43,136 bases of DNA from contig DASQAT010000051.1 of assembly GCA_035635555.1 (NCBI GenBank), positions 1 through 43,136 on the forward strand, read 5' to 3'. The position numbers and the translations under genes are program-made. Positions within the stretch are counted from its first letter, which is position 1. Every line of letters starts with the position of its first letter. Origin of the DNA: Candidatus Dormiibacterota bacterium. Lineage in GTDB: Bacteria; Acidobacteriota; Polarisedimenticolia; Gp22-AA2. The notes beneath the pieces were generated by a model. The model was not told where the DNA came from and searched no databases. It saw nothing but the letters and a program-made list of their open reading frames with translations. This document shows positions 26,743 to 33,591 of this stretch, one piece after another.

Positions 26743-28338
26743 TCAGGACACGCTCCCGAGCCGCGCGAACCAGGCGCGCATCCCACGCACCAGCCTCCGG
26801 CCGGCGGGAGTGAGGAGACCCGAGCGCGAGGCCTCCTCGAGATCCCGCAGCGCGGAGGCGATCATCCGCTTCTCGCGGTGGAGCTCGCGGCGGACGAAGG
26901 CGCTCTCGGTCGCCCCGAGCCGGGCGCCGGGGGCGCGCATCCGGTCGCGCTGCACCCGCAGCACGCGGCGGAACAGCTCGGCGCGAAACAGGAACGTGTA
27001 GGCGCCGTGCAGGAGGCCGTGCAGAGGCCGGCGCGCCCCGCGCCACGGCGAATCGAAGGCCTGCACCTCCAGCGTCTCCGGGCCGGGCACCAGGAGATCG
27101 ACCGTTCCCTGCAGGTCATGCAGGCGGTGGTGCGCGGTCTCGTGCAGGAGGTCGTCGGCCAGATCGATCGGCGACTTGCCGGACACGTTGATGAACGAAA
27201 TGCCGGGTCGCGCGGCCATCGAGTAACTCACGGTCCCGGGTTCACGGATCGGCACGACCATGAAGGTGCGCCGCTCGATCTCGCGCTGCGCCTCGGGCCA
27301 CGACACCCGCACGATCCGGAGGGCGCCCGCCAGTCTGGGGCCGAGCCCCCGGGACTCCCGCAGCACGCGCGGGGGGCGGCGACTCGACAGGACGACCGGG
27401 GCGAGGACGATGGCCGTTCCCGGGAGACTCTCCCGGCGCTGCAGGCGGAGCGCGGCGCCGCGCGCCCCCGGACGCCGGCGCCGCGCGCCCGGCACCAGGT
27501 CCGGAGCGAGGAGACCCGTCCCGGCGGCCGGCACGATGACGCGTCCCGCGCCCGGTGCTCTCAGATCGAGCCGCGCGCCGCGGAGCGTGGCGCGCACGTG
27601 CCGCTCCGCCGCAGGGCGCAGCGTGCCCGCGGGGCGGGGTCGTCCGCCGGGCCTGCCGGCGCGGGTGATGGCGAGCGGTCCCGCAGGTCCGGCCAGGGTC
27701 CCCAGATCGATCCGGTCGCGGGGCCGGCCCTGCTCGGCATCTTCACGAAACCTGAGAACGACGCTGAGGGGGCCGGGCTGCCTGTAGGCGAGCCGCAGTC
27801 CGAGGACGAGCGCCGCGAGATCGAAGGTGGCGTCGTCGAGACGTTTCCTGGCGAAGGTCCCGCAGCGGCGGGCGAATCCGGAGTCGACACGCCCCCGGGG
27901 AACGAGTGTGCCGAGGTGCTCCGTCCCGCAGACGAGATGGAACAGCCGCGCCGTCGTCGACCCCGTCCCGCCACGACCGCCGGGCGCCTTACGGTGGACG
28001 CGGCGCGCGAGGAGGAGCCGGGACAACCGCCCCGCCTCGAGCCATGTCTCCGCCTCGGCGAGAAACCCCCGAATGTCCGGCCCGACCAGGATCCTGTCGC
28101 GGACCGGCCGGGGCAGGGCGCGCAGCGTGGCGAGGAGGCCGTCCAGGAGCGGGACAGCCCGCCGCACCGAGGCGGCGCGGGGGAGGGAGGCGAGCCTGCG
28201 CCGCGTCCGTCGCAGCCTCCAAAGGCCGAGACGGGCCAGCCGGGGCGACAGGTTGTCCGTCTCCAGTCCCTGCTCTACGGTCACAGCGCCGACGGTCGTG
28301 ATGGCAGAAACCTCCCGGGGCGGGTCATTCTCGTTCAA
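26743..28338 (-). CDS. aKG-HExxH-type peptide beta-hydroxylase-like protein (stand-alone)
   Basis: A protein of up to 531 residues whose C-terminal half carries the hallmarks of the HExxH putative peptide-modification family: FINVSGKSPIDLADDLLHETAHHRLH (H399-E-T-A-H403 if the TTG start at 28338 is used) and, about 40 residues on, SPWRGARRPLHGLLHGAYTF with a third His (H444). In this family, alpha-ketoglutarate/iron-dependent members hydroxylate ribosomally made peptides. The N-terminal ~340 residues, with PVRDRILVGPDIRGFLAEAETWL, also look like the family's usual N-terminal region. No radical SAM enzyme, transporter or obvious precursor peptide adjoins it. The start is uncertain: TTG 28338 lacks a ribosome site but sits near a divergent -10; GTG 28284 is the alternative. 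High arginine content. Confidence 0.72.
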   Translation of the reverse strand: MNENDPPREVSAITTVGAVTVEQGLETDNLSPRLARLGLWRLRRTRRRLASLPRAASVRRAVPLLDGLLATLRALPRPVRDRILVGPDIRGFLAEAETWLEAGRLSRLLLARRVHRKAPGGRGGTGSTTARLFHLVCGTEHLGTLVPRGRVDSGFARRCGTFARKRLDDATFDLAALVLGLRLAYRQPGPLSVVLRFREDAEQGRPRDRIDLGTLAGPAGPLAITRAGRPGGRPRPAGTLRPAAERHVRATLRGARLDLRAPGAGRVIVPAAGTGLLAPDLVPGARRRRPGARGAALRLQRRESLPGTAIVLAPVVLSSRRPPRVLRESRGLGPRLAGALRIVRVSWPEAQREIERRTFMVVPIREPGTVSYSMAARPGISFINVSGKSPIDLADDLLHETAHHRLHDLQGTVDLLVPGPETLEVQAFDSPWRGARRPLHGLLHGAYTFLFRAELFRRVLRVQRDRMRAPGARLGATESAFVRRELHREKRMIASALRDLEEASRSGLLTPAGRRLVRGMRAWFARLGSVS

Positions 28339-28351
28339 GTTGAAAATGCCC

Positions 28352-28359
28352 TACAATAC
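28352..28359. promoter_or_regulatory. overlapping divergent -10 boxes
   Basis: On the plus strand TACAAT (28352-28357) ends 8 nt before ATG 28366. On the minus strand TATTGT (28359-28354) overlaps it and lies 15 nt before TTG 28338. One A/T-rich patch could thus serve both divergent genes, each with almost no leader. No strong -35 boxes. Confidence 0.4.
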
Positions 28360-28365
28360 CCCGCC

Positions 28366-29436
28366 ATGACAAGTCACATCGTGCGGATCGCCGTTCGTCT
28401 CGGGGTCCTGCCGGCCTTGGTCTGCGCGGGGCCTGAGATCTTTGCGCAGGGGTTCGGCGGGACGGTCGCGGACCACCTGGTGCGCGGCGACAGCCTGCTG
28501 GCGCAGAAGAAGGGGGCGGAGGCGATCATGCAGTTCCAGGAGGCGCGCACTCTCTGTGCGGAGCCGGACGAGATCGTTTCGGCTCTCGAGGGCGAGGCGC
28601 GCGGGCACCTGCTGCAGGACGAGATGCTTCCGGCGGTCGGTCTCCTCGAGGAGGCCGCGACGCGCTTTCCGGATGACCCGCGCGCCTCGAACCTTCTGTT
28701 CCAGGCGGGCTCCGTGTCCCAGAGCGCGGGCGAGTTCGACAAGGCGATCGACCTCTACCGCAGGGCGCTGGCGAGAAACCCGACAGCGGACATCCTGCCG
28801 CCCCTCAAGCTCCAGCTCGCCCTCGCGCTGCGGATGACCGGACGGGCGGGAGAGGCGATCGAGGTCCTGAAGGACTTCGAGAAGGATTTTCCGGACCACG
28901 GTCTCCTGCCGACGGCCCTGTACCAGCTGGCCATCGCCACGCACGATCTGGGCACCGGCAACAAGGACCGCGCCAAGCTCGAGGAGGCGGTGGCGATCTA
29001 CAGGAAATTGATCGAGAAGTTCCCGGGCAAGCCCGCGACGATCGAAGCCCACTTCGAGATGGGCCTCGTCCTGTCCGAACTGCGGCAGAGCGCGGAGGGG
29101 GCGGACTACTTCACCCAGTACGTCTCCATGAATCCGACGTCCGCGGAAGCGCCGGCCGCCCTCGAGAAGGCGGCCGATCTGCTGCTGCTCCGCTCCCCGA
29201 AGCAGAGCGCGCAGCTCTACGCGCTGGCTCAGATCAAGGCGAAGACGAACCCGAAGCCGACCAACCCGGAGTGGGCCCTGACCCGGTGGCTCCCGGCGAA
29301 GCAGAGGCTCGCCGACACCCTGTCGAGTGTCTGGGTCCTGGTGATCCTGGGCCTGCTCGTCCTCGGGGGGATGGCACTGGTCGGCCGGCTGGTCGTGAGG
29401 CGAATCCGGAAAGCCCCGGCCCCGGCGGGCGCCTGA
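28366..29436 (+). CDS. TPR-repeat exported protein with C-terminal membrane anchor
   Basis: A 356-residue protein. A signal peptide (about 1-28, ending EIFAQG) is followed by TPR-like helices from about 36 to 285 (LVRGDSLLAQKKGAEAIMQFQEA, SAGEFDKAIDLYRRALARNP, TGRAGEAIEVLKDFEKDFPD, KLEEAVAIYRKLIEKFPGKP, ELRQSAEGADYFTQYVSMNP) and a C-terminal membrane segment (about 322-345, WVLVILGLLVLGGMALVGRL) with a basic tail. Topology suggests a periplasmic TPR domain tethered to the inner membrane, similar in layout to YbgF/BamD-like scaffolds, though I cannot assign it. It diverges from the HExxH protein and could present its substrate, which is speculative. Confidence 0.85.
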   Translation: MTSHIVRIAVRLGVLPALVCAGPEIFAQGFGGTVADHLVRGDSLLAQKKGAEAIMQFQEARTLCAEPDEIVSALEGEARGHLLQDEMLPAVGLLEEAATRFPDDPRASNLLFQAGSVSQSAGEFDKAIDLYRRALARNPTADILPPLKLQLALALRMTGRAGEAIEVLKDFEKDFPDHGLLPTALYQLAIATHDLGTGNKDRAKLEEAVAIYRKLIEKFPGKPATIEAHFEMGLVLSELRQSAEGADYFTQYVSMNPTSAEAPAALEKAADLLLLRSPKQSAQLYALAQIKAKTNPKPTNPEWALTRWLPAKQRLADTLSSVWVLVILGLLVLGGMALVGRLVVRRIRKAPAPAGA

Positions 29437-29455: not shown

Positions 29456-29746
29456 TCAATCGGCGTCGAAGGGTCGGGGCGGGGGCTCGTCGGATTCGGC
29501 GGCCTTCTTGCGCGCCTCCTGGAATTTCTTCTCCAGGATCTCCTCGCGGTGTCGCGCCTCGTCCATCGCCCGGGCGAGCTTGTCCTCGGCTTCCTTGCGC
29601 TGGGCCTTGACCTGCCCCATCGCCTCGTCGAGCGACTGGTGCTCGCGGTGCCGGCGCCGCTCCTCGAGGAGAATCGCCCCTGTCCGGGGGTCGACGGTCA
29701 GGAGAGTATCGCAGCAGGGACAGACGATCTTCAGGCTCTTCGACAT
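29456..29746 (-). CDS. small zinc-ribbon/coiled-coil hypothetical protein
   Basis: A 96-residue protein. The N-terminus KIVCPCCDTLLTVDPRTGAIL has a CPCC knuckle followed by a treble-clef-like turn; only one cysteine cluster is present, so full zinc coordination would need a dimer or other ligands. Residues about 30-85 are a charged coiled coil (EERRRHREHQSLDEAMGQVKAQ and on). The C-terminus is acidic/proline-rich. Function unknown; likely cytoplasmic. Confidence 0.75.
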   Translation of the reverse strand: MSKSLKIVCPCCDTLLTVDPRTGAILLEERRRHREHQSLDEAMGQVKAQRKEAEDKLARAMDEARHREEILEKKFQEARKKAAESDEPPPRPFDAD

Positions 29747-29797: not shown

Positions 29798-30139
29798 ATG
29801 AGCGACGACAGACCGAAGAGCGCCTACGAGATCACGATGGAGAAGCTGAAGGCGCGCGATCGCGAGCGAGGCGAGACCGCCCCCGCGGCCTTGACGGACG
29901 GACAGAAGAAGAAAATCGCCGACCTGCGCAAGGTCCACGAGGCCCGGCTGGCCGAGCGGGAGATCCTGCACCGCTCGGAACGGGCCAGGCTCCTCTCCGA
30001 TCCCGAGGGAGCGGAGAAGCTCAAGGAGCTCGAGGAGCATTACCTCGGCGACAGGCGCCGGATCGAGGAGCAGCGGGACAAGGCGATCGAGGAGGTGCGA
30101 TCGGGCAAGGGAGGGGCCAGGACGAAGCGGTCTACCTGA
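29798..30139 (+). CDS. coiled-coil hypothetical protein (113 aa)
   Basis: A 113-residue highly charged protein, nearly all helical. It starts MSDDRPKSAYEITMEKLKARDRE, and the rest is a long coiled coil ending in a basic tail (KGGARTKRST). An AAGGGAG site precedes ATG 29798. SAYEITMEKLKARDRE resembles short conserved proteins found in several Acidobacteriota-like genomes, but I cannot give a function. It overlaps the end of the convergent thioredoxin-like gene by 8 bp. Confidence 0.72.
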   Translation: MSDDRPKSAYEITMEKLKARDRERGETAPAALTDGQKKKIADLRKVHEARLAEREILHRSERARLLSDPEGAEKLKELEEHYLGDRRRIEEQRDKAIEEVRSGKGGARTKRST

Positions 30140-30950
30140 CCGCGCCGAAGATGTCGGCCAGCTCCGTCTCGGGGACCGCGCCGGGCTGGGATCCCATCCG
30201 GGTGATCTCCCGCCCGTCGATCTTCACGATGATGGTCGGGATCGAGTTGATGTTCCGGCCCTGCCAGGGCCCCGGTGCCTGGGTGAACCCCTTCGGCACG
30301 CCGTAGAGATTGACCTTGATGTTGGGGTTCTTGACTTCCGAGACGACCCGCAGGAACTTCGGCATGTACTCTTTGCAGTGGGGGCACCAGGTCGCGAAGA
30401 AGGCGTCGATCTGGACCTTCTTCGTGTACTTGTTCAAGGCCGCGATCGACTCTCCCTTGGGCGCGTACTCCCGCATCCCCTCCCGGTACTCCGGCCGGTC
30501 GGCGACGAGCGTGTCCATCTCGACCGCCCCGACGATCGGCGGGCGGTCCAGGCAGCGCAGGATGCGCACCTTCTTGTCCTCGGCCTGGAACTGCACGAAG
30601 GGTCCGTCCACCGCCAGGGCGTAGGCGGTGGCGGTCGGAGGGGCGGTGTCGTTCATCTGAAGGCCGCCATCCACCTGCTTGATCTGCTCGCGCGGCACCG
30701 CCACGACCTTGCGGGCCTTCATGTCCATGAGCAGGCCGGTCTTGCACGCCGGGACGTCGACGTAATACATGCCGGGGCTCGCCGCCTGGTAGAGGGTGGC
30801 GTTCTTCGGATAGGAGCCGTCGACCTCGACGCTGTAGTCGTAGTTCGGCTTGCACACGATCGCGTCCGCGAGCGCCGGTGAGGTCGCGGCGAGCGCCAGT
30901 GCCAGGACCGGCAGAAGACGGATCGTCCGGAGAGAGGCCATATCAAGCAT
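30132..30950 (-). CDS. exported thioredoxin-like protein with CPHC motif
   Basis: A 272-residue exported protein. Signal peptide about 1-30 (RLLPVLALALAATSPALADA). Residues ~31-170 form an unassigned domain with three cysteines (C33, C69, C133). The C-terminal thioredoxin fold (about 178-270) has FFATWCPHCKEY (C189-PH-C192), as in DsbA/TlpA-like reductases, and a cis-proline-type segment NINSIPTIIVKIDG. Starts at 30950, 30953 and 30968 are all possible; GGAGG lies 7 nt before ATG 30950, while ATG 30968 overlaps the preceding stop. Operon position after the MauE/DoxX-like gene fits a disulfide or electron-transfer pair, with the membrane protein supplying reducing or oxidising power. Confidence 0.85.
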   Translation of the reverse strand: MLDMASLRTIRLLPVLALALAATSPALADAIVCKPNYDYSVEVDGSYPKNATLYQAASPGMYYVDVPACKTGLLMDMKARKVVAVPREQIKQVDGGLQMNDTAPPTATAYALAVDGPFVQFQAEDKKVRILRCLDRPPIVGAVEMDTLVADRPEYREGMREYAPKGESIAALNKYTKKVQIDAFFATWCPHCKEYMPKFLRVVSEVKNPNIKVNLYGVPKGFTQAPGPWQGRNINSIPTIIVKIDGREITRMGSQPGAVPETELADIFGAVR

Positions 30951-30964
30951 CATGAGGCCTCCGA

Positions 30965-31903
30965 TCATAGCAGGTCTTTCGCCTCCGGGGGAGCGCCGTC
31001 GTAGACCGCCGTCACGCGGCCGGAGTCGACCAGGAAGAAGCGCGGCAGCCTCCGGTAGAGCACGGGGATCACCTCGCGGTCGATTCGCTTGACCTCGAAC
31101 GCCGGCACCGCCGTCCACAGGAAGGCGTCGATCTCCTGCTCGGTCGAGGGCGTGAGACCTAGGATCGGCGGGGCTCCCTGCGTCGCGGCGAGGGCGTTCA
31201 GCGCCTCGGCGATCCCCGCCGCGCGCGCGTCGGTCACGTCGAAGAGGGCGACGAGGTGACGCCCCTCGGCGAGCGCGGGCAGACGCTTCTCGAGTTTGAG
31301 GTCCGCCAGGACCGCCCCGGGAGCCAGTCGCGTGATGACGGGAATGTTGAAGAACGGCAACGAAGGGGACGCGACCACGAAGGCCGTCGAGATCAGGAGA
31401 GACGCGACCAGCACGGCGCCGGCCCCGCCGGCTCGGAGTCCTTCCCATCCCCTCGATCCCCAGATCGCGATCGCACCCAGGAGGACGAACAGCAGATCTT
31501 CGCCGATCACCTCCGCCGGGGTCCTGCTCGAGTAGGCCCCGAAACAGCCGCACGCCTCCGTGCGACCGGCCGAGAGGCCGTAGGCCTCGATGCCGATGAA
31601 GATCAGCAGCAGGACGATGGATGCGCCCGCGGTCAGGACCGGCCGCACGGCGCACACCAGCGCCACGCCGAGGACGATCTCGAACACGATGAGGGCGGGG
31701 GCGGCGAGGGCCGTCAGGCGTGGACCGAGGATGCCGTATCCCGCCACCTGTTGCGTGAACTCGGAGGGAGTGAGTCCCTTGGCGATTCCGGAGAACAGGA
31801 AGATCGCACCGAGGAGAATCCGCCCGGCATGCCCCAGGCCGCCGCGCCAGGATGGCCAGCGGGCGTTCCGCTGCAGGGCGTGCGCCTCCGTCGCCGCGTC
31901 CAT
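30965..31903 (-). CDS. MauE/DoxX-like membrane protein with C-terminal soluble domain
   Basis: A 312-residue protein. The first ~175 residues hold four to five membrane helices (GRILLGAIFLFSGIAKGLTPSEF, LIVFEIVLGVALVCAVRPVL, ASIVLLLIFIGIEAYGLSAG, LLFVLLGAIAIWG) and the TEACGCFG motif typical of MauE/DoxX-family proteins, where the C-G-C pair is thought to take part in disulfide exchange. The remaining ~130 residues look like a thioredoxin-like fold without a CxxC (HLVALFDVTDARAAGIAEAL, PRFFLVDSGRVTAVYDG). The stop overlaps a possible start of the CPHC protein gene, supporting a joint redox role. Confidence 0.85.
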   Translation of the reverse strand: MDAATEAHALQRNARWPSWRGGLGHAGRILLGAIFLFSGIAKGLTPSEFTQQVAGYGILGPRLTALAAPALIVFEIVLGVALVCAVRPVLTAGASIVLLLIFIGIEAYGLSAGRTEACGCFGAYSSRTPAEVIGEDLLFVLLGAIAIWGSRGWEGLRAGGAGAVLVASLLISTAFVVASPSLPFFNIPVITRLAPGAVLADLKLEKRLPALAEGRHLVALFDVTDARAAGIAEALNALAATQGAPPILGLTPSTEQEIDAFLWTAVPAFEVKRIDREVIPVLYRRLPRFFLVDSGRVTAVYDGAPPEAKDLL

Positions 31904-32136: not shown

Positions 32137-33528
32137 TCACGGACCGTAGTCGATGAACCCGGGGTTCAGGACGCCGTCCGGGTCGTAGGTCGTCTTGAGA
32201 CGGCAGAGCTCGTCCCAGCGCGTCCCGAAATGCTGCTTCCAGCGCTTCCGGTCGAACTCGATGAAGCCGGAGAGATAGCGCTTCGCGCCGGCCGCCAGGC
32301 TCATGTCCGACACCAGGTTCAGGCGCGCCTTCGCCTGCGGCAGGAGGTCCGGCGGGACTCCCGGCAGGATTCCGAAGCCCATCACGAGCGGTGTCTGAGG
32401 GTACATGAAGAAGGGAATGTGCGACACGGTGCCGCGGCAAGGCCAGAGAAGGACATGCCCCCCTCCGAGCGCGGTGGGCGGCAGGCCGGCGAGGACCTGC
32501 GTGATGAACGGCTGGGCCGCCCCCCACGGGATGATCGTTTCCGTCCACGGGTGCGCCATCCCCCAGTTCCCCATCCGCTTCCAGATGGCGAACAGCGGCT
32601 CCAGGCGGGCGGCGAAGCCGAGGAGATCCTGGTCGTCGATGTGGGTGCGGCGGTACGGCGCGAGCCCCTGCAGGACGCGCGCGTCGTCGGGTGGCGACTG
32701 CGGCTCGAACTCGACCGTCAGCTGCAGGGGAAAGAACCAGGCGGCGAACGCCTCCTTGCCGGAGGGCGTGCTCTTGAACCCCTGCGGGCAGGGGGAGCAG
32801 GTCGCCTCGATGTAATCCACCCGGTCCTGCTCGATGGCGAGCTGGGCGTCGCGCATGATCGCCCCGAGATCGTCGTACAACAGGAAATAGGTGCGAGTCC
32901 TGGGCCTGCAGCGGCGCAGCTTCAACCGGGCGCGCGTGATCACGCCGATCTGCCCGAAGGTCGAACGCACCGCATCGAAGACCGCGTGCTCACGCGACTC
33001 CGACGCGACCACGATGTCCCCCAGGCCTGTGACCGCCTCGATCTCGGTGACGTTGTCCCCCTGCGCTCCGAAGCGGAAGGAGGCCACCCCCAGCCCGGCG
33101 ACCGACAGCGTTCCCCCGACCGTGACGCCGAGGTTGTTGGTCAGGACCGGCGGCACGAGTCCTTGCGGAATCGCCTGGCGCACCAGGGTCTCCCACTTGA
33201 CGCCGGCCTGGCAGTCCGCCAGAAGACCCACGGGATCGATCGAGAGGATGCGATCGAGGGAGGTCAGGTCGATGAGGATCCCGTCCGCCACGGTGGCCTG
33301 GCCGCTCTGGGTGTGCGCCTCGCCGCGCGTGGCGACCGGCACGGAGTTCTTGCGGGCGTAGCGGATGACTTCCGCGACGTCCTGGGTCGAGGACGGCCGG
33401 ACCACGACCCCCGGGACGCGCCTGATCATCCGGCCGAAATCGCTGCTCGCGTCGGCGCGGAGGGCCTGGTCGTCCAGCACCTGTCCCGCGATGAGCGCCC
33501 TGAGGTCGCCCGCCAGATTTCCCGCCAT
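32137..33528 (-). CDS. FAD-binding (PCMH-type) oxidase, cytokinin dehydrogenase-like
   Basis: About 463 residues. The PCMH FAD domain is visible as VVVRPSSTQDVAEVIRYARKNSVPVATRGEAHTQSGQATV, where the H in GEAHTQSGQ occupies the covalent-FAD site of the GHS motif, followed by GLVPPVLTNNLGVTVGGTLSVAGLG and TGLGDIVVASES. The C-terminal half resembles the cytokinin-dehydrogenase substrate domain, ending YDPDGVLNPG. Substrate is unknown. Open frame extends to 33591, but ATG 33528 is chosen because a promoter at 33563-33591 would start transcription near 33556. ATG 33564 is the alternative. Confidence 0.9.
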   Translation of the reverse strand: MAGNLAGDLRALIAGQVLDDQALRADASSDFGRMIRRVPGVVVRPSSTQDVAEVIRYARKNSVPVATRGEAHTQSGQATVADGILIDLTSLDRILSIDPVGLLADCQAGVKWETLVRQAIPQGLVPPVLTNNLGVTVGGTLSVAGLGVASFRFGAQGDNVTEIEAVTGLGDIVVASESREHAVFDAVRSTFGQIGVITRARLKLRRCRPRTRTYFLLYDDLGAIMRDAQLAIEQDRVDYIEATCSPCPQGFKSTPSGKEAFAAWFFPLQLTVEFEPQSPPDDARVLQGLAPYRRTHIDDQDLLGFAARLEPLFAIWKRMGNWGMAHPWTETIIPWGAAQPFITQVLAGLPPTALGGGHVLLWPCRGTVSHIPFFMYPQTPLVMGFGILPGVPPDLLPQAKARLNLVSDMSLAAGAKRYLSGFIEFDRKRWKQHFGTRWDELCRLKTTYDPDGVLNPGFIDYGP

Positions 33529-33562
33529 CACCCTGTTCCGTGAAGAGTGGTCAAGACCGGCC

Positions 33563-33591
33563 ATGATACGGGATCGAAACGGGTCCTTCAA
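33563..33591 (-). promoter_or_regulatory. candidate sigma-70 promoter of the FAD oxidase operon
   Basis: On the minus strand TTGAAG (33591-33586) and TATCAT (33568-33563), 17 nt apart (4 of 6 and 5 of 6 matches). It predicts a start near 33556 and a leader of about 28 nt before ATG 33528. Confidence 0.55.

Follow-up and report, generated by a model that had tools for sequence, protein, structure and literature searches.

Gene content, catalytic motifs and fold

Within the window, by which we mean the whole 43,136-nucleotide stretch analysed, a reverse-strand open reading frame (26743-28338) encodes a protein with a HETAH motif, followed by RRPLHGLLHGAYTF, hereafter referred to as the hydroxylase. 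Both the frame and the motif are present as the initial annotation had reported, but the start codon it assigned, TTG 28338, is in all likelihood not the true one, as discussed below. By tblastn, the frame is conserved at 51-66% identity (best segment) in five Acidobacteria MAGs. Its neighbours are those previously described, namely a TPR protein divergent from the hydroxylase and two small coiled-coil proteins (Table 1). The conserved stretch between the two divergent genes is likely to be a promoter of one or both of them; it contains TACAAT in the direction of the TPR gene. Further along the window, at 30132-31903, a thioredoxin-like protein with a signal-like start lies beside a MauE-family membrane protein, an arrangement conserved in the family.

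Table 1. Features of the hydroxylase locus, in window coordinates
Feature	Position	Strand	Remarks
aKG-HExxH hydroxylase gene, from the probable AUC start	26743..28302	-	519 aa; TIGR04267 86.8 bits; ATC with Shine-Dalgarno pairing of -11.0 kcal/mol
Catalytic domain, TIGR04267 positions 1-177	26779..27333	-	profile match
SPWRxxxRPLxGLLHGAYTF motif	26992..27051	-	alignment of 14; counterpart in ChlH is SPWREDLRPPSGLLH
HETAH metal-binding motif	27130..27144	-	residues 399-403 of the 531-aa frame; aligned with HEHRH of ChlH
Probable ATC (AUC) start codon	28300..28302	-	in-frame, 16-17 codons before a conserved LS/LE anchor in 6/7 family orthologues
Shine-Dalgarno-like GGGAGG	28311..28316	-	8 bases before the ATC; anti-Shine-Dalgarno of the organism assumed
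Conserved intergenic stretch, TPR/HExxH genes	28325..28358		34 bases, closely similar across five genomes in the genus
TPR protein	28366..29436	+	N-terminal signal-like and C-terminal membrane segments; 7/41 class genomes
96-aa coiled-coil protein with N-terminal CPCC motif	29456..29746	-	36/41 class genomes
113-aa coiled-coil protein	29798..30139	+	35/41 class genomes
FAD_binding_4/Cytokin-bind oxidoreductase	32137..33591	-	beside the hydroxylase gene in family f2

The HETAH protein had been assigned to the HExxH peptide-modification family, and profile, motif and structural comparisons all bear this out. Its score to NCBIfam model TIGR04267, 'aKG-HExxH-type peptide beta-hydroxylase', is well over the cutoff of 40 bits, the match spans the full profile, and it is the sole match over cutoff in the window's 4.28 Mb genome; the search did not place the protein in an unrelated metalloprotease family. 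By sequence, one PDB entry was matched, that of ChlH (8s5f, E 9.8e-8). A profile of 14 relatives returned 8s5f at E 2.7e-15 and 22nu at 1e-8, and aligned HExxH, SPWR, RP and GLLH of the hydroxylase to ChlH. The aKG-HExxH domain of ChlB/ChlH seen in PDB 8s5f was reportedly described by Morishita et al. in Nat Chem in 2024. Across the alignment of 14, H399, E400 and H403 are invariant, as are S430, P431, W432, R433, R437, P438, L439, G441 and H444 around the SPWR motif.

An AlphaFold2 model of the hydroxylase (pLDDT 83.0, pTM 0.85) shares the ChlH fold, with a Foldseek E-value of 6.6e-8 to 8s5f and a VIA-align Z of 25.0 to 8s5f_A (301 residues, rmsd 3.0). Because this match runs over model residues 18-528, the fold is that of the whole protein and not of the motif alone. 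The second structure, SjiH (22ob), aligns with Z 23.7 over 366 residues, and rows after these two aKG-HExxH-type structures score 10.6 and lower. The window frame belongs to the aKG-HExxH family over its full length. Unlike ChlB/ChlH, it is a stand-alone protein among ordinary genes. SjiH (22ob, 22nu) shares HExxH and PWRKDLRP with it but aligns a Q to the LLH histidine; a literature search for SjiH found no paper.

Distribution and gene neighbourhoods

TIGR04267 matches occur in 16 of 41 genomes of the class, one in each and all over cutoff. The hydroxylase is present in 11 of the 12 genomes of the window's order, the lone exception being 63% complete. Across the phylum, 25 of 396 genomes match, 22 of them over cutoff; these include the 16 class genomes, and the other nine comprise six over cutoff and three weak matches. 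In a tree of 23 rows, which has long outgroup branches, 15 of the class sequences, from the window's own taxonomic family (f1) and from families f2, f4, f8 and f11, form one moderately supported group (81/95); the hydroxylases of f1, f2 and f8 each lie on a single branch of their own. The 16th class member (G032, family f10) is placed apart from this group. We read this pattern as that of a vertically inherited gene, since lost in places or gained a few times. A plasmid collection yielded 10 records with weak hydroxylase matches (29-36% identity). In another class of the phylum, two TIGR04267 genes stand in tandem (L104:6826-9497, reverse strand), adjoining aldo/keto-reductase-like and glycosyltransferase-like genes.

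Neighbourhoods were viewed for all 16 class members, five of them in named records of the same contigs; for the f10 member (L030) this amounted to mapping its neighbours. In f1 the gene order is cytochrome-ASPIC-HExxH-TPR-coiled coil-coiled coil-thioredoxin-MauE-FAD, kept in the seven enzyme-bearing genomes as far as the contigs reach, with a few inserted genes; in the window itself, ASPIC is separated from HExxH by two insertions, YaeQ and an HI0933-type flavoprotein. The order is conserved within the family but not beyond it. In the four f2 genomes the HExxH gene is followed by the FAD gene and then by an 88-aa gene (L025:9039-12070; equivalents in L027, L028 and L029), with LytB/IspH nearby. 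Elsewhere the gene also lies among housekeeping genes: uroporphyrinogen decarboxylase and ferrochelatase in f4, transketolase and an aminotransferase in f8, and TatD in f11.

The initial annotation had placed the gene outside any recognisable RiPP cluster, and this stands. No precursor peptide gene is adjacent, the gaps to the flanking genes being about 10 and about 60 bases, and Pfam and NCBIfam detect no radical SAM enzyme, MNIO or other maturase among the window neighbours. An FxsB-type radical SAM search of the window's own genome gave no match at E 1e-10, and no RiPP genes were seen near other members of the hydroxylase clade in the neighbourhoods examined. Of the six loci taken as an outgroup, from the over-cutoff genomes in other classes of the phylum, two do lie beside FxsB/YhhB-type radical SAM enzymes, in both cases shortly upstream of the HExxH gene: the YhhB-type enzyme of L099 scores over cutoff (470 bits against 445), the FxsB-like enzyme of L103 below it (299 against 370). 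Inspection of neighbourhoods can therefore detect RiPP genes when they are present. PflC/PosC and PesO belong to clusters with a precursor and an MNIO (PMC12636437, PMC13060819), whereas the window enzyme has no adjacent precursor.

The same annotation had suggested that the divergent TPR protein might present the substrate, and this did not hold up, on grounds of both distribution and topology. The TPR family occurs in only 7 of the 16 enzyme-bearing class genomes, all of one taxonomic family (Fisher p with the enzyme by genome 5e-4, 41 class genomes). The TPR protein has a signal-like start and a membrane segment at 322 and, with the usual orientation assumed, its TPR domain is predicted to lie outside the cytoplasm (periplasmic). 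The hydroxylase lacks a hydrophobic segment, none of its 19-residue stretches exceeding 1.34 by Kyte-Doolittle; together these features argue against presentation, and we rejected the TPR protein as a partner.

The two coiled-coil genes are the only precursor-sized genes near the hydroxylase, and both are class-wide. They were rejected as substrates because they are present in most genomes that do not have the enzyme and show no specific association with it (Fisher p 0.14 and 0.38 in the same 41 genomes). The 96-aa gene does, however, also occur within 1 kb of the hydroxylase in f11 (L032). Its product has no Pfam or NCBIfam match over cutoff, ends in a PPPRPFD tail and is 69-92% identical in the family. 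The 88-aa gene was likewise rejected as a substrate, since it is confined to the four f2 genomes among the 41 of the class and so cannot explain f1; the L025 copy has no Pfam match.

A probable AUC start codon

In-frame start candidates and their pairing energies to an assumed anti-Shine-Dalgarno sequence were surveyed in seven f1 orthologues. The anti-Shine-Dalgarno sequence used was the generally known one; GGAGG-like stretches before several neighbouring starts fit it. The sole match to a 16S 3'-end pattern in the window's own genome was rejected as rRNA for want of an Rfam match. Six of the seven orthologues (the window, L004, L005, L006, L008 and L024) have an in-frame ATC with Shine-Dalgarno pairing of -9.3 to -12.3 kcal/mol. 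The hydroxylase of the window probably starts at the ATC at 28302-28300, and initiation at AUC in vivo is what these sequence comparisons suggest. In the seventh orthologue, L007, there is an ATG with poor pairing and no good Shine-Dalgarno at its ATC.

Alternatively, the AUC start may be unreal, with translation from TTG 28338 or GTG 28284 in the window and from other rare codons in its relatives. An in-frame TTG is indeed available upstream in the window and L024, and a GTG downstream in the window and L008. Such candidates pair poorly, at -3.4 to -1.1 kcal/mol, against the values given above for the ATC; TTG 28338, at -3.4 kcal/mol, also lies inside the conserved stretch beside the divergent TPR gene. 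In the case of L006, where the frame is open into the divergent TPR gene, canonical codons there were set aside as lying inside that gene, and a TTG nearer its ATC pairs at -2.4 kcal/mol. L004 and L005 have no ATG, GTG or TTG between an in-frame TGA and the conserved helix. In these two the lack of a usable canonical start is strict, and the ATC is kept in six of the seven family orthologues. An ATG in a conserved GAGAATG was also rejected as a start, being out of frame, in a frame that by eye ends within about 16 codons in the window and L004. We consider a start other than AUC unlikely.

Conservation of the codon points the same way. The ATC is invariant in the six orthologues while flanking columns average 38% pairwise identity, a descriptive figure given that the alignment was anchored at the ATC itself. 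When runs of codons were drawn at random from these N-terminal regions, 0.041% of draws gave one codon shared by all six; this resampled null (4e-4) ignores kinship, and five of the six orthologues are of one genus. From the ATC to the GPD motif, differences are largest at third codon positions in all six pairs compared; the excess is strong in L008/L024 and L005/L024 and weak in window/L004 (28, 29, 35). Among 71 gene instances in the f1 loci, a canonical start before about residue 20 is missing from two only, each of them a hydroxylase gene; the count is two among the seven hydroxylase instances and 0 among the 64 of neighbouring genes. In families other than f1, ATG or GTG starts are available to the hydroxylase, some with poor Shine-Dalgarno pairing, and L029 reads ATC-GTG, whereas no clear start stands out in L033; L028, cut by its contig, was left out of the survey.

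The gene infC served as a positive control. In all eight f1 genomes inspected (L106-L113) it has an ATC start behind GGAGG, with pairing of -10.3 to -11.6 kcal/mol. In several of these genes a stop codon stands in frame one or two codons before the ATC, which makes a canonical start impossible. In earlier reports, infC starts with AUU in E. coli and AUA in S. aureus (PMC13009471; E. coli through its reference list and that of PMC9845219), and pcnB, cvfC1 and ccpN also have non-AUG starts (PMC13009471; E. coli cases through reference lists including that of PMC9845219). AUU and AUA starts with strong Shine-Dalgarno sequences lower initiation in S. aureus and are described as IF3-modulated (PMC13009471). 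The hydroxylase resembles infC, pcnB, cvfC1 and ccpN in combining a non-canonical start with a strong Shine-Dalgarno and conservation between species; it differs from them in using AUC and in being a gene of the peptide-hydroxylase type.

Proposed function and alternatives

Our preferred reading, to which we give a probability of about 0.5, is that the protein is a cytoplasmic Fe(II)/aKG oxygenase with the aKG-HExxH fold, acting by hydroxylation on a polypeptide whose gene lies elsewhere in the genome, and that it represents a vertically inherited, chromosomal, non-cluster branch of this acidobacterial lineage, AUC-started in the window's family. The enzyme would bind Fe(II) through HExxH and would bind aKG, a dependence on both that its family membership leads us to expect. 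By family, it would hydroxylate the carbon of a residue in a peptide (PMC12636437, PMC13060819, PMC12707348). No precursor lies nearby in any family of the clade, and the substrate is therefore most likely encoded elsewhere; it would be a peptide or protein recognised in trans. The AUC start behind a strong Shine-Dalgarno would keep synthesis low, and translation may be sensitive to initiation factor 3, as with infC, the IF3 link being by analogy only.

The characterised aKG-HExxH members described in the literature consulted act on RiPP precursors within clusters (PMC12636437, PMC13060819), which makes a non-RiPP substrate an extrapolation. The sequence match to ChlH covers the catalytic part only, and for that reason the substrate class may differ. 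PflC is also reported to cleave a truncated substrate hydrolytically (PMC12636437), so that the hydroxylase may have protease activity as well.

A possible though less favoured explanation is that the enzyme matures an orphan RiPP: its precursor would be encoded at a different locus, possibly along with partner enzymes, for instance near an MNIO gene. This would agree with the RiPP role of the characterised members and with the biphenomycin and pes clusters, which pair an MNIO with an aKG-HExxH enzyme (PMC12707348, PMC13060819). The window's own genome does encode one MNIO (PF05114, E 5.1e-108; G000:C48:140975-141757, locus L105), far from the window. An MNIO elsewhere in the family means that a remote RiPP pathway could operate in the same cell. 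However, the MNIO does not track the enzyme: among class genomes it is present in 7 of the 16 with the enzyme and in 6 of the 25 without (Fisher p 0.30), and the orthologue-bearing genomes of f2, f8 and f11 have neither an MNIO match nor an FxsB match over cutoff. The negative radical SAM search of the own genome, which was of FxsB type, weighs against it too. Of the f2, f8 and f11 genomes just mentioned, two (G004 and G028) show TIGR04269 matches below cutoff.

More doubtful is a role as an oxygenase of small molecules or amino acids, in partnership with the linked FAD oxidoreductase. The FAD gene stands behind the hydroxylase on the same strand in all four f2 genomes, and f1 loci containing it have it a few kb away in the same orientation. 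Among the class genomes, 17 of 41 carry it, and in 14 it accompanies the enzyme, leaving exceptions of 2 and 3 (Fisher p 1.9e-6, n=41). Counted by taxonomic family, with the membership of G032, of another subclade, left out, the association is not significant (p 0.29). Moreover, enzyme and FAD gene are on different contigs in f8 and f11, and in f4 the enzyme occurs with no FAD gene at E 1e-60.

A zincin-type zinc metalloprotease, suggested by the HExxH and by the single Pfam match to the protein (Peptidase_M78, E 0.028), is improbable, given that this match is below the gathering cutoff (14.6 of 22 bits), that the two best solved relatives are both of the aKG-HExxH type, and that SPWRxxxRP and the GLLH histidine, common with ChlH, are invariant across the alignment of 14.

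Neither the enzyme family, nor its fold, nor the use of non-AUG starts is novel. As far as our literature searches show, what is new is the lineage-wide non-cluster branch and an AUC start in such a gene: no account of a stand-alone chromosomal aKG-HExxH branch or of an AUC-started member was found, in searches that covered few subscription papers. We also entertain, as a speculative and rather unlikely extension, the idea that the target hydroxylated by this non-RiPP, lineage-wide branch is a conserved cellular protein, which might belong to the translation apparatus, and that in one family the dosage of the enzyme is tied to IF3 through the infC-like AUC.

A branch passed down vertically and not tied to clusters would widen the aKG-HExxH family to include cellular substrates. 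A conserved AUC start, common with infC, would make the gene prone to mis-starting or truncation by gene finders, and offers a dosage-control hypothesis open to direct testing.
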